A stretch of DNA of 64,000 nucleotides from Nocardiopsis suaedae. Its GTDB lineage: Bacteria > Actinomycetota > Actinomycetes > Streptosporangiales > Streptosporangiaceae. Every line of letters begins with the position of its first letter. The stretch's first letter is position 1. The stretch is taken from assembly GCF_027706745.1 (NCBI RefSeq), contig NZ_JAQFWP010000017.1:1-64000 (forward strand). The letters run 5' to 3'. The notes below the pieces were generated by a model. That model was not told the origin of the DNA. It ran no database searches and saw nothing but the letters and a program-made list of their open reading frames with translations. Position numbers and translations under genes: made by a program. Positions 9,148 to 21,206 of the stretch are shown here, piece by piece.

Positions 9148-9164
9148 GTTCGCTTTCTGCGGAA
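9148..9164 (+). promoter_or_regulatory. Candidate ClgR box upstream of clpP1
   Basis: GTTCGC-TTTCT-GCG at 9148-9161, followed by GAA, fits the GTTCGC-N5-GCG element that I recall as the Streptomyces ClgR site controlling clpP1clpP2 and lon. It lies about 130 bp before the clpP1 start, overlapping the tail of the tig terminator. The second half-site is imperfect (GCGGAA rather than GCGAAC). Confidence 0.45.
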
Positions 9165-9292
9165 TGCGCGGCCTTCCGGGCCGCCCCCATGCGCTCAAAG
9201 CGAACAGGCCCGCGAAGCGTGCGAGCGGGACCGTGAAGAGCGTTAGTGTCGCAAGCGTCGCAACCGTTTCGATTTCGGAGCAGGTGACGAGA

Positions 9293-9916
9293 GTGCCGCC
9301 GACCCAGAACGAGTCCACGCGAGTCGAAGCCCGTACGGCCGAGTCGCCTATTCCCCCGGTGTTCGAGCAGACGTCGCAGCGTCTGCTGCGCCAGCGCATC
9401 ATCTTCCTCGGCCAGCAGGTCGACGACGAGATCGCCAACCGCATCGTGGGTGAACTGCTGCTGCTGTCCGCCGAGGACCGCCAGCGGGACATCACGCTGT
9501 ACATCAACTCGCCGGGCGGTTCGGTCACCGCCGGTATGGCGATCTATGACGTCATGCAGTACATCCCCAACGACGTGCGCACCGTCAGCATGGGCATGGC
9601 CGCGTCCATGGGCCAGTTCCTGCTGTGCGCCGGCGCCACGGGCAAGCGCTTCGCCCTGCCCCACGCCCGCGTGATGATGCACCAGCCGATCGGCGGGATC
9701 GGGGGCACCGCCTCCGACATCCGGATCCTCGCCGACGACCTGCTGTACGTGAAGAAGATGTTCCAGGAGCGCATCGCCTTCCACACCGGCCAGACGGTGG
9801 AGCAGATCGAGAAGGACTCCGACCGGGACCGCTGGTTCACCGCCCAGGAGGCCAAGGACTACGGGTTCATCGACGAGGTGCTGGAGGGCACCCTCGACGT
9901 CTCCGGCCAGTCCTGA
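9293..9916 (+). CDS. clpP1: ATP-dependent Clp protease proteolytic subunit 1
   Basis: 207 residues. GTG 9293 is chosen because AGGTGA, an exact match to the anti-Shine-Dalgarno, lies five bases upstream; GTG 9284 in the same frame is the alternative. The catalytic triad is Ser105 (in GMAASMG), His130 (VMMHQP) and Asp179. The N terminus [22 protein letters not shown] is typical. In actinobacteria ClpP1 and ClpP2 form a mixed two-ring tetradecamer that degrades substrates fed by ClpX or ClpC. clpP2 follows after 71 bp, apparently in the same transcript. Confidence 0.96.
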
Positions 9917-9987
9917 GGGGCCGAGTCACGCCTGAGGAGTCCGGGACCGGTTACCCCCGAAGTACGGTGCATGTGGAGGGCCAGAAC

Positions 9988-10650
9988 ATGAACGAGTACG
10001 CGTACAAGGCGTTCGGCGCCGGCGGCATGGCTCCGCCGAGCCCGCAGAACCGCTACATCCTTCCGTCGTTCGTCGAGCGCACCTCGTACGGCGTCAAGGA
10101 GATGAATCCGTACAACAAGCTCTTCGAGGAGCGGATCATCTTCGTCGGCGTGCAGATCGACGACACGTCGGCCAACGACATCATGGCGCAGCTGCTCACG
10201 CTGGAGCAGATCGACGCCGACCGCGACATCCAGATGTACATCAACTCGCCGGGCGGGTCGTTCACGTCGCTGATGGCGATCTACGACACGATGCAGTTCG
10301 TCCGCCCCGACGTGCAGACGGTGTGCATCGGCCAGGCGGCCTCCGCCGCCGCGGTGCTGCTGGCCGGGGGGACGAAGGGCAAGCGCGGCTGCCTGCCCAA
10401 CGCGCGGATCCTGATCCACCAGCCCGCCACCGACGTCACCCGCGGCCAGGCCAGCGACATCGAGATCCAGGCGAACGAGATCATGCGGATCCGTAAGCAG
10501 CTGGAGTCCACGCTGGCCAAGCACACGGACAAGACGGAGGAGGAGATCTCGCAGGACATCGAGCGGGACAAGATCCTCACCGCGGAGGAAGCCAAGGACT
10601 ACGGCATCGTCGACTTCGTCCTGCCGTACCGCAAGACCTCCCTGAAGTAG
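9988..10650 (+). CDS. clpP2: ATP-dependent Clp protease proteolytic subunit 2
   Basis: 220 residues from ATG 9988, with GGAGGG seven bases upstream; the open frame runs further back, but that part overlaps clpP1. The triad is Ser119 (GQAASAAAV), His144 (ILIHQP) and Asp194. The N-terminal extension [20 protein letters not shown] is longer than in ClpP1 and resembles a propeptide; in related species ClpP2 processing and pairing with ClpP1 activate the complex. A hairpin follows before clpX. Confidence 0.96.
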
Positions 10651-10667
10651 GCGGTGTCCGCGGGCCC

Positions 10668-10689
10668 GGACGGGCCCGCGGGCCCGTCC
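10668..10689 (+). terminator. Hairpin between clpP2 and clpX
   Basis: GGACGGGCCC / GGGCCCGTCC separated by two bases, 18 bp after the clpP2 stop. It is likely a terminator or attenuator, since clpX has a 265-bp upstream region and can have its own promoter. Confidence 0.5.
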
Positions 10690-10915
10690 TCGGGGCCCGG
10701 CCCCACACGCCGCGGGCGATCGGGTGGTGAAGCCGGTCTCCCTCTTCGCTTACGCTCGTAAAGAGCGACGCACAGATCACCCCGCACGGAGTCGGCGCCA
10801 AAGGGCATATCCTGCAAGAGCGGATAGGCCCGCTGGGGACGCCTCGTACCGCGGACCGCGCAGCGGGCGCACGGGCGCCGTTGACGGGGCGGCCTACGTT
10901 TTAAGGAGTGGCTGG

Positions 10916-12190
10916 GTGGCACGCATCGGCGACGGTGGAGACCTGCTGAAGTGCTCGTTCTGCGGCAAGAGCCAGAAGCAGGTGAAGAAGCTCATTGCCG
11001 GCCCGGGTGTGTACATCTGTGACGAGTGCATCGACCTGTGCAATGAGATCATCGAGGAGGAGCTCGCCGACTCCACCGAGCTCAAGTGGGACAGCCTCCC
11101 CAAGCCGCGCGAGATCTACGAGTTCCTCGACTCCTACGTGATCGGCCAGGACCAGGCGAAGAAGGCGCTGTCGGTCGCGGTCTACAACCACTACAAGCGG
11201 GTCCAGTCCGAGGGCGACCGCCCCCGCGACGAGGACGTGGAGATCGCCAAGTCCAACATCCTGCTGCTGGGCCCCACCGGTTCGGGCAAGACGCTGCTCG
11301 CCCAGACCCTGGCCAAGATCCTCAACGTCCCCTTCGCCATCGCCGACGCCACCGCGCTCACCGAGGCCGGGTACGTCGGCGAGGACGTGGAGAACATCCT
11401 CCTCAAGCTGATCCAGGCGGCCGACTACGACGTCAAGAAGGCCGAGACCGGGATCATCTACATCGACGAGGTCGACAAGGTCGCGCGCAAGAGCGAGAAC
11501 CCCTCGATCACCCGGGACGTGTCCGGGGAGGGCGTGCAGCAGGCGCTGCTGAAGATCCTGGAGGGCACCACCGCCAGCGTGCCGCCGCAGGGCGGGCGCA
11601 AGCACCCGCACCAGGAGTTCATCCAGATCGACACCACCAACGTGCTGTTCATCTGCGGCGGGGCCTTCGCCGGGCTGGACCGCGTGATCGACCAGCGGGT
11701 CGGCAAGCAGGGGATGGGCTTCAACGCGGTGCTGCGCTCCTCCTCCGAGCACAAGGCCGAGGACCTGTTCACCGACGCCATGCCCGAGGACCTGCTGAAG
11801 TTCGGGATGATCCCGGAGTTCGTCGGGCGGCTGCCGGTCATCACCAATGTGCACAACCTCGACCGCGAGGCGCTGGTGCGCATCCTCACCGAGCCGCGCA
11901 ACGCCCTGGTCAAGCAGTACCAGCGGCTGTTCGAGCTGGACAACGTGGAGCTGGAGTTCAGCGAGGACGCCCTGGAGGCCATCGCCGAGCAGGCCATCAT
12001 CCGCGGCACCGGCGCGCGCGGGCTGCGGGCCATCATCGAGGAGGTCCTGCTCTCGGTGATGTACGAGGTCCCCAGCCGCGAGGACGTCGGCCAGGTGATC
12101 ATCACCCGCGAGGCGGTCCTGGAGCACGTGAACCCCACGATCGTCCCGCGTGTGGAGCCGGGTGACGAGCCCGAGGAGAAGAGCGCCTGA
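10916..12190 (+). CDS. clpX: ATP-dependent Clp protease ATP-binding subunit ClpX
   Basis: 424 residues from GTG 10916, with AAGGAG seven bases upstream. The N-terminal C4 zinc finger is CSFCGKS...CDECIDLC (residues about 13-40). The AAA+ core has Walker A GPTGSGKT, Walker [10 protein letters not shown] and the pore region. The position of the IGF loop, which docks on ClpP, reads MGF (KQGMGFNA). ClpX unfolds substrates and passes them to the ClpP1P2 barrel encoded just upstream. In many actinobacteria valS follows; here a DUF305/LVIVD accessory block intervenes. Confidence 0.97.
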
Positions 12191-12206
12191 GGCGCCCCTA
12201 GAGCAG

Positions 12207-12249
12207 CGACGGAGCGGCCGCCCCTCAGCGGAGGGCGGCCGCTCCGTCG
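12207..12249 (+). terminator. Terminator of clpX
   Basis: A perfect 17-bp stem (12207-12223 with 12233-12249) and a nine-base loop, 17 bp past the clpX stop codon. Confidence 0.75.
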
Positions 12250-12265
12250 TCGTCCGCGGGGCCCT

Positions 12266-12329
12266 CGATGATCTCGACAAAAGTGCTGTCGAAACCGCCG
12301 GAGTGACAGCACCTTCGTCGAGATCATCG
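12266..12329. repeat. Long palindrome with TGATCTCG ends (copy 1)
   Basis: Arms of 25 bases (12266-12290 and 12305-12329) match at 23 positions around a 14-base loop. It abuts the stop codon of the DUF305 gene on the minus strand and can act as its terminator. The outer arm TGATCTCG/CGAGATCA is shared with the palindrome at 49456-49513, while the inner sequence differs. Confidence 0.7.
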
Positions 12330-13061
12330 CTAGGAGTTCAGTGCCTCGTCCATGCGGTTGATGTCGGCCTGCTGCTCGGCGATGACGTCGTTGGCCATCC
12401 GCAGCACGTCGGTGTCCTTGCCGTCGATGGTGACGTCCTCGGCCATCTCGATGGCGCCCAGGTGGTGCTCGGTCATCAGCTCGACGAACAGCGCGTCGAA
12501 CTCCTCGCCCTCGGCGGCCTCCAGCTCGTCCAGCTGGTCCTGGACGAGCATGCCCGGCATGTCGGTGTGGTCCACCTCGATGGGGCAGGCGGCCAGGGCG
12601 CCGCCGCCGTGGTGGCCGCCGCCGTCCTCGACCCCGGCCTCGCCGTCGCGCCACTGGGTGAGGCCGCAGGAGTCGGCGTAGTTGGGGTTGCCCTCGGCGG
12701 GCCCGTAGACGTTGGTCTCCAGCCAGGCCTCCATGGCCTCGACCTCGGGCCCCTGGGCGTCCTCGATGCGGTCGGCGATCTTCTCCACGTCGCCGTCGTC
12801 GACCCGGTCGGGGACCATCGCCGTCATGTCGAGGGCCTGCTTGTGGTGCTCGATCATCTTGAGCACGTAGACCACGTCGGCCTCGTTGTGGGTGATCTCC
12901 TGGTTGGCGGCGTCGATCTGCTCCTGGGAGGCGGGCGAGGCGGACTCGCCGGGGCCGCCGGGCATCAGCACGTCGGGCTCGTCGCCGGAGCCCTCGCCCG
13001 AGCAGGCGGTGGCCGCGGCGAGGAGGAGGGCGGCTCCGAGCGCCAGGGTGGGACGCGGCAC
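12330..13061 (-). CDS. DUF305 lipoprotein, likely metal-binding
   Basis: 243 residues from GTG 13061. The signal peptide ends in a lipobox (AAATAC, Cys20), so it is predicted to be anchored outside the membrane. Two DUF305 repeats carry EHH motifs: IEHHKQALDM (His72-73) and TEHHLGAIEM (His199-200); a further GGGHHGGG occurs at 150-151. DUF305 is a four-helix ferritin-like fold, and a cyanobacterial member, CopM, is a periplasmic copper-binding protein. Cys132 and Cys159 may form a disulfide. It is divergent from three secreted propeller proteins (13305-18069), 243 bp away. Copper binding is inferred from the family. Confidence 0.85.
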   Translation of the reverse strand: MPRPTLALGAALLLAAATACSGEGSGDEPDVLMPGGPGESASPASQEQIDAANQEITHNEADVVYVLKMIEHHKQALDMTAMVPDRVDDGDVEKIADRIEDAQGPEVEAMEAWLETNVYGPAEGNPNYADSCGLTQWRDGEAGVEDGGGHHGGGALAACPIEVDHTDMPGMLVQDQLDELEAAEGEEFDALFVELMTEHHLGAIEMAEDVTIDGKDTDVLRMANDVIAEQQADINRMDEALNS

Positions 13062-13304
13062 GGGGGGCTCCTCTCGGCGGGGGAAGCGCGGCGGTCGGCC
13101 GCTTCGGGATGTCTACTGTCATCAGGGCGGGTTTGTCCAGTATCCGATCCGTCGCCACATCGTGACGCGCGGTGTGCGCACGCACTGAACTGCGCTGATC
13201 GCCGTGTGTAGTGATTTATATCGATTTTACTCATGGTCGCGGTTCGTGTGGATATGTATCTTCTTCGTGTTCACCTTCGGTATCGGCGACGATGAGGAGC
13301 CCCC

Positions 13305-14735
13305 ATGCCGAGATCCCCCCGGGTGTCCACGAGACGCCCGCTGCGTCGGCGTCCGCTGCGTCGGCGCGTGCTGAGCACGGCCGTGACCCTCCTGGCCGCC
13401 GCGGGACTGACCGCCTCCGCGCTGCCGGCCCAGGCGGGCACCCCCGTCGACGAGATCGACAAGAGCGACAACGTCGAGCTGACGGCCAACCTGCCCAAGC
13501 CCGAGGGGTTCGAGCCCACCAACTCCGACCTGGCCTTCACCGGTGACCACGTCATCGTCGGCAACTACAACGGCTTCGTCATCCACGACGTCTCCGAGCC
13601 GTCCGAGCCGGAGATCACCGCCGCGGTGCTGTGCCCGGGCGGCCAGGCCGACGTGTCGGTCAGCGGGGACCTGCTCTACTTCTCCGTGGAGTACCCGCGG
13701 GCGAACGACGAGTGCGGCGCCCCGGAGAGCACCCCCGAGGACCCGGAGGCGTTCGAGGGCATCCGGGTGTTCGACATCTCCGACAAGGCGAACCCCGAGT
13801 ACATCGCGTCGGTGCGCACGGACTGCGGGTCGCACACCAACTCGCTGATCCAGGGCGAGGAGAGCGACTACATCTACGTGTCGTCGTACGCGCCCTCGGA
13901 GAAGTACCCGAACTGCCAGCCGCCGCATGACAAGATCTCCGTCGTCGAGGTCCCCAAGGACGACCCGCAGGACGCGGCGGTCGTCGCCCAGCCGGTGCTG
14001 TTCCCCGACGGCGGCAATGAGGACCAGGACGGCCTGCTGCGGCCGACCCAGGGCTGCCACGACATCACCGTCTACGCCGAGAAGGGCCTGGCCGCCGGGG
14101 CGTGCATGGGCGACGGCATCATCATGGACATCAGCGACCCGCTGCAGCCCGAGGTCATCGAGACCGTGCGCGATGAGAACTTCGCGTTCTGGCACTCGGC
14201 GACGTTCACCAACAAGGCCGACGGCGTCATCTTCACCGACGAGCTGGGCGGCGGCGGTGCGGCCACCTGCAATGCCGAGGTCGGGCCGGAGCGCGGAGCG
14301 GACGCCATCTACGGCCTGAAGGCCAAGCCCGCCAAGGGGGAGCGGCCCGCGAAGGCGGAGCTGACCTTCAAGAGCTACTACAAGATCCCGCGCCACCAGG
14401 GCGACACCGAGAACTGCGTGGCGCACAACGGCTCGCTGATCCCGGTGAAGGGCGAGAACTACTTCGTCCAGGCCTGGTACCAGGGCGGGGTGTCGGTGAT
14501 CGACTTCAACGACCTGGAGAACCCGAAGGAGATCGCCTACTTCGACCGCGGCCCGGTGTCCGACACCGAGCTGGTGCGGGGCGGCAGCTGGTCGGCGTAC
14601 TACTACAACGGGTACGTCTACTCGGCCGAGCGCACCCGCGGGTTCGACGTCCTCCGCCTGGACGACGAGCGGCTCGACCGTGCCGAGAAGGTGCGGTTCG
14701 ACGAGCTGAACCCGCAGAACCAGGTCCGCTACTGA
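13305..14735 (+). CDS. Secreted LVIVD-type beta-propeller protein, paralogue 1
   Basis: 476 residues from ATG 13305, with GAGGAG five bases upstream. The N terminus is arginine-rich (RRRPLRRR) with a hydrophobic core ending ALPAQA-G, a signal peptide. The body has repeated segments of the form 'GNYNGFVIHDVSEPSEPE' and 'GIRVFDISDKANPEY', which are LVIVD/YncE-type propeller blades. Eight cysteines and four histidines, His177 (CGSH), His252 (GCHD), His297 (FWHS) and His374 (CVAH), recur in both neighbouring paralogues. The enzymatic role is unknown. The upstream region is AT-rich for this genome (around 13206-13235), a likely promoter, and a hairpin follows the stop codon. Confidence 0.8.
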   Translation: MPRSPRVSTRRPLRRRPLRRRVLSTAVTLLAAAGLTASALPAQAGTPVDEIDKSDNVELTANLPKPEGFEPTNSDLAFTGDHVIVGNYNGFVIHDVSEPSEPEITAAVLCPGGQADVSVSGDLLYFSVEYPRANDECGAPESTPEDPEAFEGIRVFDISDKANPEYIASVRTDCGSHTNSLIQGEESDYIYVSSYAPSEKYPNCQPPHDKISVVEVPKDDPQDAAVVAQPVLFPDGGNEDQDGLLRPTQGCHDITVYAEKGLAAGACMGDGIIMDISDPLQPEVIETVRDENFAFWHSATFTNKADGVIFTDELGGGGAATCNAEVGPERGADAIYGLKAKPAKGERPAKAELTFKSYYKIPRHQGDTENCVAHNGSLIPVKGENYFVQAWYQGGVSVIDFNDLENPKEIAYFDRGPVSDTELVRGGSWSAYYYNGYVYSAERTRGFDVLRLDDERLDRAEKVRFDELNPQNQVRY

Positions 14736-15101
14736 GGACCTCCGGCCGGGGGCCGGGCCGCTCCGGCGGCTCTGGGCCCCGGCCGCCCGCCCCGCCCTGT
14801 CCCGGTTGCGGACGCGGTAGCCGGTTTACGGACGTCCTAACGTCGGTTCATTCCGGTCCGAAAGCCGGGCGGCAGGGGAGGGGCGGGCGCCGTGCCCTGG
14901 GCCCACCCGCGGGCCCACGCGCACCCGTTCCGGCGTGCACGAATTCCCGGTCCGTGCCTGGATTGCCACGATGGGCACCGGCGACGGATGAACCGCGCAG
15001 TGTGTCGAATCGGAAGCGGTCCGGATTACCCCTCTGTACAGGAGGGGACCGGTCTATGTAGTTTGCCCGTGTTTTCGGCTCTCATCGACGAAGGAGTCCG
15101 G
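14736..15101. other. Intergenic region between propeller paralogues 1 and 2
   Basis: 366 bp. It contains a hairpin just after paralogue 1 (14743-14785) and then probably the promoter and leader of paralogue 2. An open frame from 14892 runs into paralogue 2, but lacks a ribosome site and would bury the signal peptide, so I do not call it. Nothing else is recognised. Confidence 0.5.
14743..14785 (+). terminator. Terminator after propeller paralogue 1
   Basis: CGGCCGGGG (14743-14751) pairs with CCCCGGCCG (14777-14785) over a 25-base GC-rich loop that can itself fold. It begins eight bases after the stop codon. Confidence 0.5.
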
Positions 15102-16517
15102 ATGCCGACATCCCCCCGGCCGCTCCGGCGGTCCCCGCTCGCGCGCGCCGCGCGCCTCGGCATCGCTCTGACGGGCGCGGCCGCCCTGGCCATCGGCCTC
15201 GCCCCCGCCGCCGGTGCGGCCGATACCGGCGGGAGCGGCACCGACAAGAGCGACAACATCGAGCATCTCGCCAACCTCCCCAAGCCCGAGGGGTTCGACA
15301 GCACCTCGGCCTATAACTCGGACCTGGCCTTCACCGGCGACTACGCCATCGACGGCAACTACAACGGCTTTGCCGTCTACGACATCTCCGAGCCCGAGGA
15401 GCCCGAACTCGTCACCACCGTCCTGTGCCCGGGCGGGCAGGGCGACGTGTCGGTCAGCGGGGACCTGCTGTACTTCTCCGTCGACTACCCGCGGGAGAAC
15501 GCCGACTGCGGGGCCGCCGCGAGCACCCCGGCCGATGCGGACGCCTTCGAGGGGATGCGGGTCTTCGACATCTCCGACATCGAGAGCCCGGAGTACGTTG
15601 CGGCGGTGCCGACCACCTGCGGGTCGCACACCAACTCGCTGGTGCAGGGCGAGGAGACGGACTACATCTACGTGTCGTCGTACGCCCCGTCGGAGCGGTA
15701 CCCGAACTGCCAGCCGCCGCACGACCTGATCTCGGTGATCGAGGTCCCGAAGGACTCCCCTGAGGACGCGGCGGTCGCCTCCGAGCCGGTGCTGTTCCCC
15801 GACGGCGGCAACCCGCCCGGCACCCCGAGCCGGGAGACCAGCGGCTGCCACGACATCACCGTCTACGCGGAGAAGGACATCGCGGCGGGCGCCTGCATGG
15901 GCGACGGCGTGGTCATGGACATCAGCGACCCGGTGAACCCCGAGGTCATCGAGACCGTGCGGGACGACAACTTCGCGTTCTGGCACTCGGCGACGTTCAC
16001 GAACAAGGGCGACGGTGTCATCTTCACCGACGAGCTGGGCGGCGGCGGTGCGGCCACCTGCAACGCCGAGATCGGGCCGGAGCGCGGCGCGGACGCCATC
16101 TTCGGGCTGAAGAGCAAGAAGGGCAACAAGAACCGCCCGGCCGAGGCAGAGCTGACCTTCAAGAACTACTTCAAGATCGACCGCTTCCAGGAGGACACCG
16201 AGAACTGTGTGGCGCACAACGGCTCACTGATCCCGGTGAAGGGCAAGAACTACTTCGTCCAGGCCTGGTACCAGGGCGGGGTGTCGGTCATCGACTTCAA
16301 CGACCTGGAGAACCCGAAGGAGATCGCCTACTTCGACCGGGGCCCCTTCACCGAGGGCATCAGCGGGTCGTGGTCGGCGTACTACTACAACGGCCACATC
16401 TACTCCTCGGAGATCCAGCAGGGCTTCGACGTCCTGAAGGTGACCGACAAGCGGCTCAAGCGCGCCGAGAAGGTGCGGTTCGACGAGCTGAACCCGCAGA
16501 ACCAGCCGCGCTACTGA
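15102..16517 (+). CDS. Secreted LVIVD-type beta-propeller protein, paralogue 2
   Basis: 471 residues from ATG 15102, with AAGGAG five bases upstream. The signal peptide is MPTSPRPLRRSPLARAARLG followed by a hydrophobic stretch ending PAAGAA. It aligns with paralogue 1 along its whole length, keeps all eight cysteines and the four histidines (CGSH, GCHD, FWHS, CVAH), and ends in the same FDELNPQNQ-x-RY tail. Many stretches are identical at DNA level, for example around the FWHS codons, pointing to recent duplication or gene conversion. It lacks a few residues in the loop before GCHD (PPGTPSRETSGCHD versus EDQDGLLRPTQGCHD). Separate ribosome site and terminator make it an independent unit. Confidence 0.8.
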   Translation: MPTSPRPLRRSPLARAARLGIALTGAAALAIGLAPAAGAADTGGSGTDKSDNIEHLANLPKPEGFDSTSAYNSDLAFTGDYAIDGNYNGFAVYDISEPEEPELVTTVLCPGGQGDVSVSGDLLYFSVDYPRENADCGAAASTPADADAFEGMRVFDISDIESPEYVAAVPTTCGSHTNSLVQGEETDYIYVSSYAPSERYPNCQPPHDLISVIEVPKDSPEDAAVASEPVLFPDGGNPPGTPSRETSGCHDITVYAEKDIAAGACMGDGVVMDISDPVNPEVIETVRDDNFAFWHSATFTNKGDGVIFTDELGGGGAATCNAEIGPERGADAIFGLKSKKGNKNRPAEAELTFKNYFKIDRFQEDTENCVAHNGSLIPVKGKNYFVQAWYQGGVSVIDFNDLENPKEIAYFDRGPFTEGISGSWSAYYYNGHIYSSEIQQGFDVLKVTDKRLKRAEKVRFDELNPQNQPRY

Positions 16518-16557
16518 CCCCGGTCCCGCCCGCCCCACCCTTCCCCACCCCCGCTGT

Positions 16558-16586
16558 CCGCCCGCCCCGTGACCCGGGGCGGGCGG
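16558..16586 (+). terminator. Terminator after propeller paralogue 2
   Basis: A perfect 11-bp stem CCGCCCGCCCC / GGGGCGGGCGG with a seven-base loop, 41 bp after the stop codon. Confidence 0.6.
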
Positions 16587-16662
16587 CGTACCGACGGGGC
16601 CGCGATCTGGGCCCGCATACGCCCGGCCGGCCCCGCCCCTCCCACGGAACGAGGAGTTCTGC

Positions 16663-18069
16663 ATGTCGCTATCCCCCAAGCGCAGACGGCTCGGGCGCCT
16701 CGGCGCCGCCGTCGCGGGCGCGGCGGGCCTGGCGCTGAGCCTGGTCGTGGCGCCTCCGGCCGCGGCGGACACCCCGCCGGCCGACTCGGTCACCAGTGAC
16801 AACATCGAGCACGTGGCCCACCTGCCCAAGCCCGAGGGTCTGGAGAGCACCAACTCGGACCTGGCCTTCACCGGCGACTACGCCATCGGGGGCAACTACA
16901 ACGGCTTCGTCATCTACGACATCTCGGAGCCGGAGGAGCCCGAGGTCGTCAGCACGGTGCTCTGCCCGGGCGGGCAGGGCGACGTGTCGGTCAGCGGGGA
17001 CCTGCTCTACTACTCGGTGGACTACCCGCGCGAGAGCGCGGACTGCGGGGCCGCCGAGAGCAGCCCGGCCGACGCCGACGCCTTCGAGGGGATGCGGGTC
17101 TTCGACATCTCCGACAAGGAGAACCCGCAGTACGTGGCGGCGGTGCCGACGGCGTGCGGGTCGCACACCAACTCGCTGGTGCAGGGCGAGGAGACGGACT
17201 ACATCTACGTGTCGTCCTACTCGCCGTCGGAGCGGTATCCGAACTGCCAGCCGCCGCACGACCAGATCTCGGTCATCGAGGTGCCCAAGGACGCGCCGGA
17301 GGACGCCAACCTGGCCAGCGAGCCCGTCGTCTTCCCCGACGGCGGCAACCACGACCAGGACAACCTGCTGCTGCCGACCCAGGGCTGCCACGACATCACC
17401 GTGTGGGCGGAGAAGGACATCGCGGCCGGGGCCTGCATGGGCGACGGCGTGATCTTCGACATCAGCGACCCGCTGCAGCCCGAGGTCATCGAGACCGTGC
17501 GCGATGAGAACTTCGCGTTCTGGCACTCGGCGACGTTCACGAACAAGGGCGACGGCGTCATCTTCACCGACGAGCTGGGCGGTGGCGGCGCTCCCACCTG
17601 CACCCCCGAGGTCGGGCCGGAGCGCGGCGCGGACGCGATCTTCAAGCTGAACGTCAAGGAGGGCAAGGGGGACAAGCCGGCCCGTGCCGACCTGAAGTTC
17701 CGCAGCTACTACAAGATCGACCGGCACCAGGGCGGCGAGCAGAACTGCGTGGCGCACAACGGCTCGCTGATCCCGGTGAAGGGCAAGAACTACTTCGTGC
17801 AGTCCTGGTACCAGGGCGGCGTGTCCATCATCGACTTCAACAACCTCAAGAAGCCCGAGGAGATCGGCTACTTCGACGCCGATGACCGGGTGGACGAGGA
17901 CGTCGAGGTGAACACGAACACCTGGTCGACGTACTACTACAACGGCTACATCTACTCTTCGGACATCTCCCGGGGCTTCGACGTGCTCAAGGTCGACGAC
18001 AAGCGCCTGGAGAAGGCCGAGGACGTCGAGTTCGACGAGTTCAACCCGCAGAACCAGCCGCAGTACTGA
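16663..18069 (+). CDS. Secreted LVIVD-type beta-propeller protein, paralogue 3
   Basis: 468 residues from ATG 16663, with GAGGAG six bases upstream. The signal peptide is MSLSPKRRRLGRLG plus a hydrophobic core ending PPAAAD. It is closest to paralogue 2 in the first half (shared 'GEETDYIYVSS' DNA) and to paralogue 1 in the GCHD loop (DQDNLLLPTQGCHD), suggesting mosaic exchange between copies. The eight cysteines and four histidines are conserved. The segment before the last blade is longer (DADDRVDEDVEVNTNTW). As with its neighbours, extracellular location is firm and biochemical activity is unknown. Confidence 0.8.
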   Translation: MSLSPKRRRLGRLGAAVAGAAGLALSLVVAPPAAADTPPADSVTSDNIEHVAHLPKPEGLESTNSDLAFTGDYAIGGNYNGFVIYDISEPEEPEVVSTVLCPGGQGDVSVSGDLLYYSVDYPRESADCGAAESSPADADAFEGMRVFDISDKENPQYVAAVPTACGSHTNSLVQGEETDYIYVSSYSPSERYPNCQPPHDQISVIEVPKDAPEDANLASEPVVFPDGGNHDQDNLLLPTQGCHDITVWAEKDIAAGACMGDGVIFDISDPLQPEVIETVRDENFAFWHSATFTNKGDGVIFTDELGGGGAPTCTPEVGPERGADAIFKLNVKEGKGDKPARADLKFRSYYKIDRHQGGEQNCVAHNGSLIPVKGKNYFVQSWYQGGVSIIDFNNLKKPEEIGYFDADDRVDEDVEVNTNTWSTYYYNGYIYSSDISRGFDVLKVDDKRLEKAEDVEFDEFNPQNQPQY

Positions 18070-18103
18070 GGGCAGGAGCCTTCAGGCGACTGAGTGACGC
18101 GTA

Positions 18104-18132
18104 GGGCCGCCGCCCCGCTGGGGCGGCGGCCC
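18104..18132 (+). terminator. Terminator after propeller paralogue 3
   Basis: A perfect 13-bp stem (18104-18116 with 18120-18132) and a GCT loop, 34 bp after the stop codon. Confidence 0.7.
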
Positions 18133-18161
18133 GTCCGTGTCGGTGGGGGAGTAGGGGGTCT

Positions 18162-18410
18162 CTACAGGTCCCGCCGACGAACGTCCCTGATGAAGGAGGC
18201 CCACTCAGAGGCCGGGAACGAGAGGTGCCCGAGCCCGCGGTTCTGCGTGTCACGGACGGCGATGCCGTGGGCGGAGGTCGCGGCGACCTCGACGCAGTTG
18301 CCGCCGGTCTGGTTGCTGTATCTGGATTTGTGCCAGGGGCCTGCAACCTCGACGCAGTTGCCACCCGTAGTGTTGCTGTAGCTGGACTTACGCCAGTACA
18401 TGTGAGTCAC
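18162..18410 (-). CDS. DUF397 protein with an internal duplication
   Basis: 82 residues from GTG 18410, whose GTGA overlaps the TGA of the upstream XRE gene by four bases, indicating coupled translation. The DUF397 core (WRKSSYSN...GGNCVEVA) occurs twice in succession: YWRKSSYSNTTGGNCVEVA and then WHKSRYSNQTGGNCVEVA, followed by the normal ending AVRDTQN...LSFPASEWASFI. Most DUF397 proteins have the first part once. DUF397 proteins pair with XRE/DUF5753 regulators in actinomycetes (as in the whiJ-type loci of Streptomyces) and are thought to modulate them; the exact mechanism is not settled. Confidence 0.85.
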   Translation of the reverse strand: MTHMYWRKSSYSNTTGGNCVEVAGPWHKSRYSNQTGGNCVEVAATSAHGIAVRDTQNRGLGHLSFPASEWASFIRDVRRRDL

Positions 18411-19219
18411 CGAAGTTCTCCCAATGCGGTGGAGATGAGCGAGCATGAAGTCGTCACAGGGAACGCTGCGCCCCTCAGCTCCTCAAACACTCGTGTGTAG
18501 TCGCTGACGTCTTGTGCCGCTTCGACGAGTGTGCCTGCGATCCTGGTCTCCGTGTAGGCGACTCGGCCTCTTTCGGGAGTGGTGAAGAGGCTGAACGTTC
18601 CGTCGAGCCCAGGGTGATGACTGCAGTCGAGGGGGACGACCTGGACGGTGACATGCGAGGTCGCGACCATCTCCAGTAGGTGTTCAAGCTGTCTGGACAT
18701 GATCTCACGACCGCCGATCGGACGACGCAGCACAGCCTCATCCAGTACTGCGGTCATGAGCGGGGGCCGGGATGCCGAATGGACCTTCTGTCGTTCCAGG
18801 CGAGCCTGTACCTGCTCGTCGATCTCTTCGTATGTATTCGAGGGCTGCCCAATCTGAATGATTGCGCGTGCGTACTCCTCCGTCTGCAATAGACCTGGAA
18901 TCAGGAGGGGAGAGTATTCGCGGATCTCCGTCGCCTCTTGTTCGAGTACAGCCACTCCCTGGAACCACTCTGGGAGTCCGCTGTATGTGTTCAGACCCTC
19001 CCACATCCGAGTGAGAGTGCCGTCTGTTGAGAGTGCTTGGTCTAGCTGGGCGAGATGCTCCGGTTTGGTGCCTCGCACGCCGCGTTCGAGGCCGCTGATC
19101 GTTCCGTAGGACATCATGACCCGCTTGCCGAGCTGTGTTTGCGTCATCCCAGCTTGGAGCCGTAAGCGGCGCAGCTCACGCCCGATCTTCACCCACTGGG
19201 GACGACTCCTGTCGGTCAT
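18407..19219 (-). CDS. XRE family regulator with DUF5753 domain (WhiJ-like)
   Basis: 270 residues from ATG 19219. The N-terminal helix-turn-helix is LRLQAGMTQTQLGKRVMMSYGTISGLERGVRG (about residues 20-50). The DUF5753 domain follows, with typical EQEATEIREYSPLLIPGLLQTEEYARAII and a C-terminal HPGLDGTFSLFTTPE. Such regulators are widespread in sporulating actinomycetes and act on development or antibiotic production together with DUF397 partners. The region is noticeably less GC-rich than its neighbours, consistent with horizontal movement. It is divergent from a small hypothetical gene starting at 19405. Confidence 0.92.
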   Translation of the reverse strand: MTDRSRPQWVKIGRELRRLRLQAGMTQTQLGKRVMMSYGTISGLERGVRGTKPEHLAQLDQALSTDGTLTRMWEGLNTYSGLPEWFQGVAVLEQEATEIREYSPLLIPGLLQTEEYARAIIQIGQPSNTYEEIDEQVQARLERQKVHSASRPPLMTAVLDEAVLRRPIGGREIMSRQLEHLLEMVATSHVTVQVVPLDCSHHPGLDGTFSLFTTPERGRVAYTETRIAGTLVEAAQDVSDYTRVFEELRGAAFPVTTSCSLISTALGELR

Positions 19220-19404
19220 GTCAACCAGATTGAGCTACCACTGAACCAGCGTCAACCGGAATGAATAAGAATTCCCAGTTCAGTTGACTGGCTGGCGGAA
19301 GAGAGGGGGTGTCAAGCAGGATCAATACTCAAGCGGCCCCGGTCGGCGGTGGTGCGCCGGACCGGGGCCTGAGCCCACGACCTGGAATGTCAGGTGAGGA
19401 CCTA

Positions 19405-19674
19405 ATGAGTCACCCTATCCACCCGCCCGACGCCTACAACCTCTTTCTCCTCCTCGCGTGCGACCTGCGGGAGACCTGGAACATCCGGTGGGCGGGGGAC
19501 GACCACCTCCACCCCGACCTCTACATCGCCGAGCGCCGCACCGAACTCCCGGAGCACGCCCGCGCGGTCGGCGCCACCGGCCGCGTCGCCGCCCGCGACA
19601 TCGACGAGTTCGCCCGGCGGCTCCGCGACCAGGAGGCCATCGACTGGAGCATCGGTCTGCACCCGCACCGCTGA
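19405..19674 (+). CDS. Small hypothetical protein beside the XRE gene
   Basis: 89 residues from ATG 19405, with GAGGA four bases upstream; ATG 19387 (MSGEDLMSH) is an alternative. The sequence MSHPIHPPDAYNLFLLLACDLRETWNIRWAGDD...ARDIDEFARRLRDQEAIDWSIG has no recognised domain, signal or membrane segment. It is acidic and Trp/Arg-containing. Its location, divergent from the XRE/DUF397 pair, suggests it belongs to that regulatory locus as a third member or target. No function is assigned. Confidence 0.6.
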   Translation: MSHPIHPPDAYNLFLLLACDLRETWNIRWAGDDHLHPDLYIAERRTELPEHARAVGATGRVAARDIDEFARRLRDQEAIDWSIGLHPHR

Positions 19675-19853
19675 CGCGGTCGACCACCACGGAATGACCG
19701 CAGCATGACCGCCGTGGCCCGATTCCCCTGGGGAGCCGCGGACGCCCGACCGGTCCTACGGACCCGCCGTCGGACACCCGCGGGGTGAATCGGGCCACGG
19801 CCCGCCGTCTTCTACGCTGGGCCTGTGAGCATCCCGACCCGAGTCACCGCGCC

Positions 19854-21206
19854 ATGAGCAGCAGCAAGCAGAGCGTCCACGAGCGCTACACCGCGATCAT
19901 CGCCGAGATCATGGGCAGGCGCGTCGAGACCGACATCGACCCCACCACCGAGCGCGTGCGGGAGGTCCTCGACCTCATCGGCGACCCGCAGCGCAGCTAC
20001 CGGGTCATCCACCTGACCGGGACCAACGGCAAGACGTCCACGGCCCGGATGATCGACGCGCTCCTGCGCGAGCGCCACCTGCGCGTGGGCCGCTACACCA
20101 GCCCGCACCTGCGCACCGCCCGCGAGCGGATCGTGCTGGACGGGGAGTCCGTCTCCGAGGAGGCGTTCATCGCCGCCTACGAGGACGTCATCCCCTACAT
20201 CCGCATGATCGACGAGCGCTCCGACGTCCCGCTCTCCTTCTTCGAGGTCATCACCGTGATGGCCTTCGCCGTCTTCGCCGACGCCCCGGTGGACGTCGCC
20301 GTGGTCGAGGTCGGCCTCGGCGGCACTTGGGACGCGACCAACGTCGCCGACGGCGACGTCGCCGTCGTCACCCCGATCGGCATCGACCACACCGACTTCC
20401 TCCCCGACACCGTTGAGGGCATCGCCGAGGAGAAGTCGGGCATCATCAAGCCGGGCGCGATCGCCGTCCTCGCCCAGCAGCAGCTCCCCGCCGCCGAGGT
20501 GCTCATGCGCCGCGCGGCCGAGGTGGGCGCCACCGTGGCCCGGGAGGGCCTGGAGTTCGGCGTCACCCACCGCGAGGTGGCCATGGGCGGGCAGTTGGTC
20601 ACCGTCAAGGGCCTGCGCGGCGGCTACGAGAACGTCTTCCTCCCGCTGTACGGCGAGCACCAGGCCAGCAACGCCGCCGTCGCCATCGCCGCCGTGGAGG
20701 CCTTCGCCGCCCCGGCCGAGGGCGACGACGAGCTGGACCCCGAACTGATCGGGCAGGCGCTCGGGGGAGTGGAGTCCCCGGGGCGCATGGAGGTCGTGCG
20801 GCGTGGGCCCACCGTCATCGTCGACGCCGCGCACAACCCGGCCGGGATCGCGGCGACGGTCGCCGCCGTGGAGGAGTCGTTCGACTTCACCCGCCTGGTC
20901 GGCGTGCTGGCGGTGATGGAGGACAAGGACGTCGAGGGCATCCTCGAACCCCTGGAGCCGCTGCTCACCGAGGTCGTGGTGACCCGCAACTCCTCGCCGC
21001 GCTCGCTGACCGCCGAGGACCTGGGCGACATCGCCGAGGGGATCTTCGGCAGCGAGCGGGTGCACGTGGCGCCGCGTCTGGACGACGCGATCGACCAGGC
21101 GGTGGCCCTGGCCGAGGACACCGGCGAGTTCTCCGGGACGGGTGTGCTGATCACCGGTTCGGTGGTGACGGCGGGCGACGCCGGCCACCTGCTGAAGGGG
21201 GACTGA
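19854..21206 (+). CDS. folC: Bifunctional folylpolyglutamate/dihydrofolate synthase
   Basis: 450 residues from ATG 19854. It contains the Mur-ligase-type P-loop HLTGTNGKTSTARMI (about 58-72), the GRYTSPHL substrate motif, EVGLGGTWDATN and the C-terminal domain motif VDAAHNPAG. It adds glutamate to folates, retaining them in the cell and completing dihydrofolate synthesis. It is translationally coupled to the DUF4233 gene (stop and start share one base, TGATG). The following ndk is separated from it here by about 10 kb of accessory genes, although in many actinomycetes it is close. Confidence 0.95.
   Translation: MSSSKQSVHERYTAIIAEIMGRRVETDIDPTTERVREVLDLIGDPQRSYRVIHLTGTNGKTSTARMIDALLRERHLRVGRYTSPHLRTARERIVLDGESVSEEAFIAAYEDVIPYIRMIDERSDVPLSFFEVITVMAFAVFADAPVDVAVVEVGLGGTWDATNVADGDVAVVTPIGIDHTDFLPDTVEGIAEEKSGIIKPGAIAVLAQQQLPAAEVLMRRAAEVGATVAREGLEFGVTHREVAMGGQLVTVKGLRGGYENVFLPLYGEHQASNAAVAIAAVEAFAAPAEGDDELDPELIGQALGGVESPGRMEVVRRGPTVIVDAAHNPAGIAATVAAVEESFDFTRLVGVLAVMEDKDVEGILEPLEPLLTEVVVTRNSSPRSLTAEDLGDIAEGIFGSERVHVAPRLDDAIDQAVALAEDTGEFSGTGVLITGSVVTAGDAGHLLKGD

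Follow-up and report, generated by a model that had tools for sequence, protein, structure and literature searches.

The window analysed here, the first 64,000 nucleotides of contig NZ_JAQFWP010000017.1 from Nocardiopsis suaedae (RefSeq assembly GCF_027706745.1), carries three tandem genes for secreted propeller proteins beside a single divergent gene for a DUF305 lipoprotein. The propeller genes lie on the forward strand (propeller 1, 476 amino acids, 13305..14735; propeller 2, 471 amino acids, 15102..16517; propeller 3, 468 amino acids, 16663..18069) and the DUF305 gene on the reverse strand (243 amino acids, 12330..13061), with an intergenic region between them that was read directly (13062..13304). 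Taken together, the propellers and their neighbour point to an uncharacterised secreted metalloenzyme and its partner.

The three propellers are 70–74% identical to one another, and each matches the LVIVD repeat above cut-off. All eight cysteines noted in a preliminary description of this DNA are invariant among them (C110, C137, C174, C204, C251, C267, C322 and C371). The same description counted exactly four histidines, at residues 177, 252, 297 and 374 of the first propeller; these positions are correct, but the count missed a fifth, H208 (within QPPHD, 13926..13928, forward strand), and five histidines (H177, H208, H252, H297 and H374) are thus common to the three proteins. A genome-wide scan recovered 405 relatives, the best 80 hits of which represent 76 distinct loci, all in Actinomycetes, and the five histidines are invariant in 141 near homologues, a single unread base excepted. 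In a wider alignment of 99 rows, however, H208 is kept in only 33 and is lost in the distant relatives, whereas the other four histidines and Glu313 persist in nearly all of them, which singles out H177, H252, H297 and H374, the four picked in the preliminary description, as the meaningful set. The cysteines follow another course: distant members retain the His/Glu set but have lost all eight of them, and a role as metal ligands was rejected on these grounds. As the losses occur partly in pairs (strongest for C251/C267, phi 0.94, then C174/C204, phi 0.85), disulfides are the likelier role, although the assignment of pairs is not clean, other pairings scoring high too.

The AlphaFold2 model of propeller 1 (predicted local distance difference test, 93.5; predicted template modelling score, 0.93; model residue = protein residue minus 47) comprises seven four-stranded blades, with an N-terminal strand closing blade 7 (DSSP, our reading). 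Its best solved matches in Foldseek were chains of 5hrm (E-values 4.9e-13 and 6.9e-13), with the next unrelated fold about four orders of magnitude behind (4.5e-9), and a profile of 102 family proteins searched against all PDB sequences retrieved only 5hrm (6.7e-5) and 5ioj (1.3e-4). Both entries are of Sb-PTE, the haloalkylphosphorus hydrolase/phosphotriesterase of Sphingobium sp. TCM1, and the title of Mabanglo et al. (2016) refers to a seven-bladed propeller with a binuclear metal centre. VIA-align, by comparison, returned generic WD40 propellers and not 5hrm among the 50 matches listed, a ranking that does not discriminate within the propeller fold and in which a missing 5hrm carries no information. 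Profile–profile comparison of the propeller family with 35 Sb-PTE-type sequences (the Sb-PTE gene from the Sphingobium plasmid and 34 relatives) gave a probability of 98.8% (E-value 8e-17), or 99.6% in global mode. Judged from these profiles and the predicted structure, the window propellers are homologous to Sb-PTE.

This kinship extends to a candidate metal site. In the model, D116 (a carboxylate set before the blade 2 inner strand; 13650..13652, kept in 140 of 141 near homologues), H177 (13833..13835), H252 (14058..14060), H297 (14193..14195) and H374 (14424..14426) stand at the head of the innermost strand in blades 2, 3, 4, 5 and 6, respectively, while E313, the predicted bridging ligand (14241..14243, 141/141), closes the second strand of blade 5 (all on the forward strand). 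The predicted ligands thus gather at a single pole of the channel, each blade contributing one residue, and the four histidines hold matching places on the inner strands from one blade to the next, much as first proposed; H208, at the start of an outer strand, is away from the axis and outside the core site. H177, H252, H297, E313 and H374 share their columns of the 99-row alignment with Sb-PTE H258, H317, H389, E407 and H475, with 97, 97, 80, 95 and 94 rows in agreement. On the Sb-PTE side, E201, H258, H317, E407 and H475 are kept in 34–35 of the 35 sequences; the H389 column holds Gln in most of these rows, and the sequences inspected by eye have their His one place further on (TQHT vs. GFHS), corresponding to an alignment shift. 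Four histidines with two carboxylates are a ligand set of the phosphotriesterase type, which speaks mildly against a copper-containing hub.

The DUF305 protein matches PF03713 with 141 bits against a cut-off of 27 (E-value 3.4e-41), and has a CopM-like two-domain organisation with a lipobox (ATAC). It contains MIEHH and MTEHH, in line with the two EHH motifs reported earlier, and both are of the MxxHH type described for CopM (PMC11836926). The first motif (M69-H72-H73, 12843..12857) and the second (M196-H199-H200, 12462..12476), both on the reverse strand, are invariant in all 70 relatives, as are M79, M110, M168, M171 and M206. A lipobox-type Cys in 82 of 90 related DUF305 open reading frames (ORFs) agrees with the initial lipoprotein call, and this is the only DUF305 gene in the whole window genome. 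Its PDB relatives are 2qf9 and CopM itself (5fej), but the CopM NCBIfam model NF049983 scores 82 bits, under its equivalog cut-off of 90. CopM is exported and binds Cu(I) tightly (PMC4335983); the window protein shares with the Synechocystis protein the two domains, the MxxHH motifs and an extracytoplasmic location, and differs from it in being a lipoprotein beside a propeller rather than part of a copper efflux operon. Another DUF305 protein, BAR11 of Saccharothrix, is a secreted elicitor of plant defence that binds catalases (PMC5900052). The His/Met-rich make-up of the window protein argues for copper somewhere nearby.

To what extent the two genes travel together was assessed across genomes. 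A DUF305 gene adjoins the propeller in 69 of the 76 loci, and the co-occurrence suggested from this single locus therefore recurs in other genomes; most of the seven loci without it are close to the end of a contig or come from a short one, and two (L047 and L076) showed no DUF305 gene despite full flanks. In a phylum-wide sample (propeller loci of at least 440 bits, distances taken from printed positions), DUF305 lies within ~1.5 kb at 20 of 27 loci. The gene is divergent from the propeller in Nocardiopsis, Streptosporangiaceae and Saccharopolyspora, and co-directional and downstream in others (L087–L089, L101, L103). On a tree of the propellers, the linkage label needs 11 changes vs. ~30 when shuffled, with unlinked clades separating linked ones, and the more distant propeller clades mostly go without DUF305. 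The link is real and general among related loci, and chance is excluded, since the residues are conserved across genera and the adjacency recurs. A Pfam scan of 156 neighbouring ORFs found no other recurrent partner family, only housekeeping synteny and scattered genes, and none of the copper genes CopC, CopD, Sco or oxidases recurred among them.

The same arrangement is found closer to Sb-PTE itself, in a well-supported branch apart from the window family. Sb-PTE-like proteins with the same ligands have a DUF305 gene directly downstream on plasmids of Paraburkholderia (L139, a Betaproteobacterium; propeller 27–28% identical to Sb-PTE) and Tsukamurella (L142) and at most of the Actinomycetes loci L143–L157, co-directional there where the window locus is divergent. 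On the Tsukamurella plasmid (NZ_LR134466, L142:3866-5418) the propeller gene is split by a frameshift into two overlapping ORFs, followed by an overlapping DUF305 gene, and zinc ATP-binding cassette transporter genes lie upstream. An apparent propeller–DUF305 fusion at L156, a stop-to-stop ORF joining both, was rejected, the propeller C-terminus being in another frame. Sb-PTE has the seven blades and the His and Glu ligand columns of the window family, and differs in being without most of the eight cysteines and without H208. More remotely, the choice-of-anchor B profile TIGR04312 gives the propellers only 52–63 bits, below its curated cut-off of 100; its members L108–L110 have the same His/His/His/Glu/His columns, but no DUF305 neighbour was seen and the eight cysteines are not conserved.

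On balance, we consider it probable, if not by much, that the window encodes secreted Sb-PTE-type metallohydrolase propellers with the DUF305 lipoprotein as their metal partner, as judged from sequence and model. Each propeller would be a seven-bladed enzyme, secreted and rich in disulfides, whose metal centre lies on the rim of the central channel and is formed by H177, H252, H297, H374, Glu313 and probably Asp116, the equivalent of the Sb-PTE ligand set. Metal, chemistry, substrate and metal transfer are inferred: two divalent metal ions would most likely activate water for the extracellular hydrolysis of a phosphoester or a related ester, and three tandem copies would provide substrate range or dose. 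The membrane-held lipoprotein would most likely bind copper through its His/Met motifs and manage the metal of the propeller, either by delivery or by exclusion of copper from the site; supply and protection both fit.

Several observations weigh against this assignment. Overall identity between the window family and Sb-PTE is just 13–18%, and the sixth ligand candidate is an Asp, D116, one alignment column off the Glu of Sb-PTE (E201), albeit in the equivalent blade. The Sb-PTE residues H258, H317, H389, E407 and H475, together with E201, are taken to be the ligands of its binuclear centre, and the convergence of the window ligands is deduced from strand register and homology. Neither phosphate-starvation operators at the divergent region nor phosphatase genes among the neighbouring ORFs were found. 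Likewise, no DUF305 gene was found in a single-contig genome whose propeller has all ligands (G226), nor in the neighbourhood of Sb-PTE on its own plasmid; given these cases and the distant clades without the gene, DUF305 is a frequent partner and not an obligate subunit.

Among the other explanations, the one that puts copper in the propeller hub, loaded by the DUF305 lipoprotein and used for an extracellular oxidation without kinship to SBP56, strikes us as rather unlikely. It draws on the 11 invariant His/Met residues of the partner, the two MxxHH motifs included, on the tight Cu(I) binding of the family member CopM (PMC4335983), and on a linkage repeated in two separate clades; yet the two-carboxylate ligand set is more like dinuclear hydrolases than known copper hubs, the copper genes named above are not recurrent neighbours, and some propeller carriers have no DUF305. 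A broader and equally tentative version would have a CopM-like lipoprotein loading or guarding the hub of a propeller of the Sb-PTE type, secreted and with copper at its active site, as a widespread and undescribed two-protein extracytoplasmic system, in which case the propellers that degrade flame retardants might originally have served as a copper-linked secreted metalloenzyme. The absence of DUF305 from some carriers could also be read the other way, with the lipoprotein as a copper scavenger that shields a Zn, Mn or Fe propeller from wrong copper uptake rather than as a supplier. This would suit both the His/Met ligands of DUF305, appropriate for copper, and the hub ligands, appropriate for harder divalent ions, but a general scavenger need not be encoded next door, and we regard this role as doubtful.

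That the propellers are not catalytic at all, but surface binding or adhesion proteins with a structural metal site, appears quite improbable. The LVIVD repeat has been described in cell-surface proteins (PMC2447325), the open-access literature yielded no activity for such propellers, and as many as four paralogues occur in tandem; a six-residue constellation at one pole, active-site-like and kept at very low identity, is nonetheless hard to reconcile with such a role. Least probable by far is membership of the SBP56/methanethiol oxidase family, propeller enzymes that bind metal through His and that had been put forward as a precedent. Conserved histidines in a propeller and the copper link suggested by DUF305 would be compatible with it, but the SBP56 family (PF05694) has no match in the propellers or anywhere in the window genome, and this kinship was rejected. 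With the ligand columns and the nearest fold, in structure and sequence alike, being those of Sb-PTE, the latter is a better precedent than the SBP56 copper oxidases.

Sb-PTE is, to our knowledge, the only characterised propeller of its kind, and it is now tied to a large family, found in Actinomycetota and Pseudomonadota, that shares its active-site residues and of which DUF305 can be named as a recurrent partner. No description of the propeller–DUF305 pairing was found in the open-access literature on DUF305, LVIVD and choice-of-anchor B, the scope of that search. Both the function of the propellers and the reason for their pairing with a lipoprotein of copper-binding type become directly testable questions.

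In the window, the cluster is flanked by clpP/clpX and folC (9164-21206), and since clpX or folC is likewise close to the relatives from further genera of Nocardiopsidaceae, its position is old in this family. Downstream of the propellers lies an XRE/DUF5753 regulator gene (18407-19219), which does not belong to the conserved unit, as a close copy near propellers occurs only in the nearest relative (L001). Inspection by eye and word counts revealed no recognisable PHO, Zur or CsoR-like sites in 13062-13304, and the words TTTTGTCCAGT and TGAGTAGAAA, for which no regulator was recognised, recur between the divergent genes, in the promoter region, at many loci of Nocardiopsis. Some of the Nocardiopsis loci (L012, L009, L010, L020–L022 and L039) carry up to ~4 tandem propeller paralogues per one DUF305 gene.

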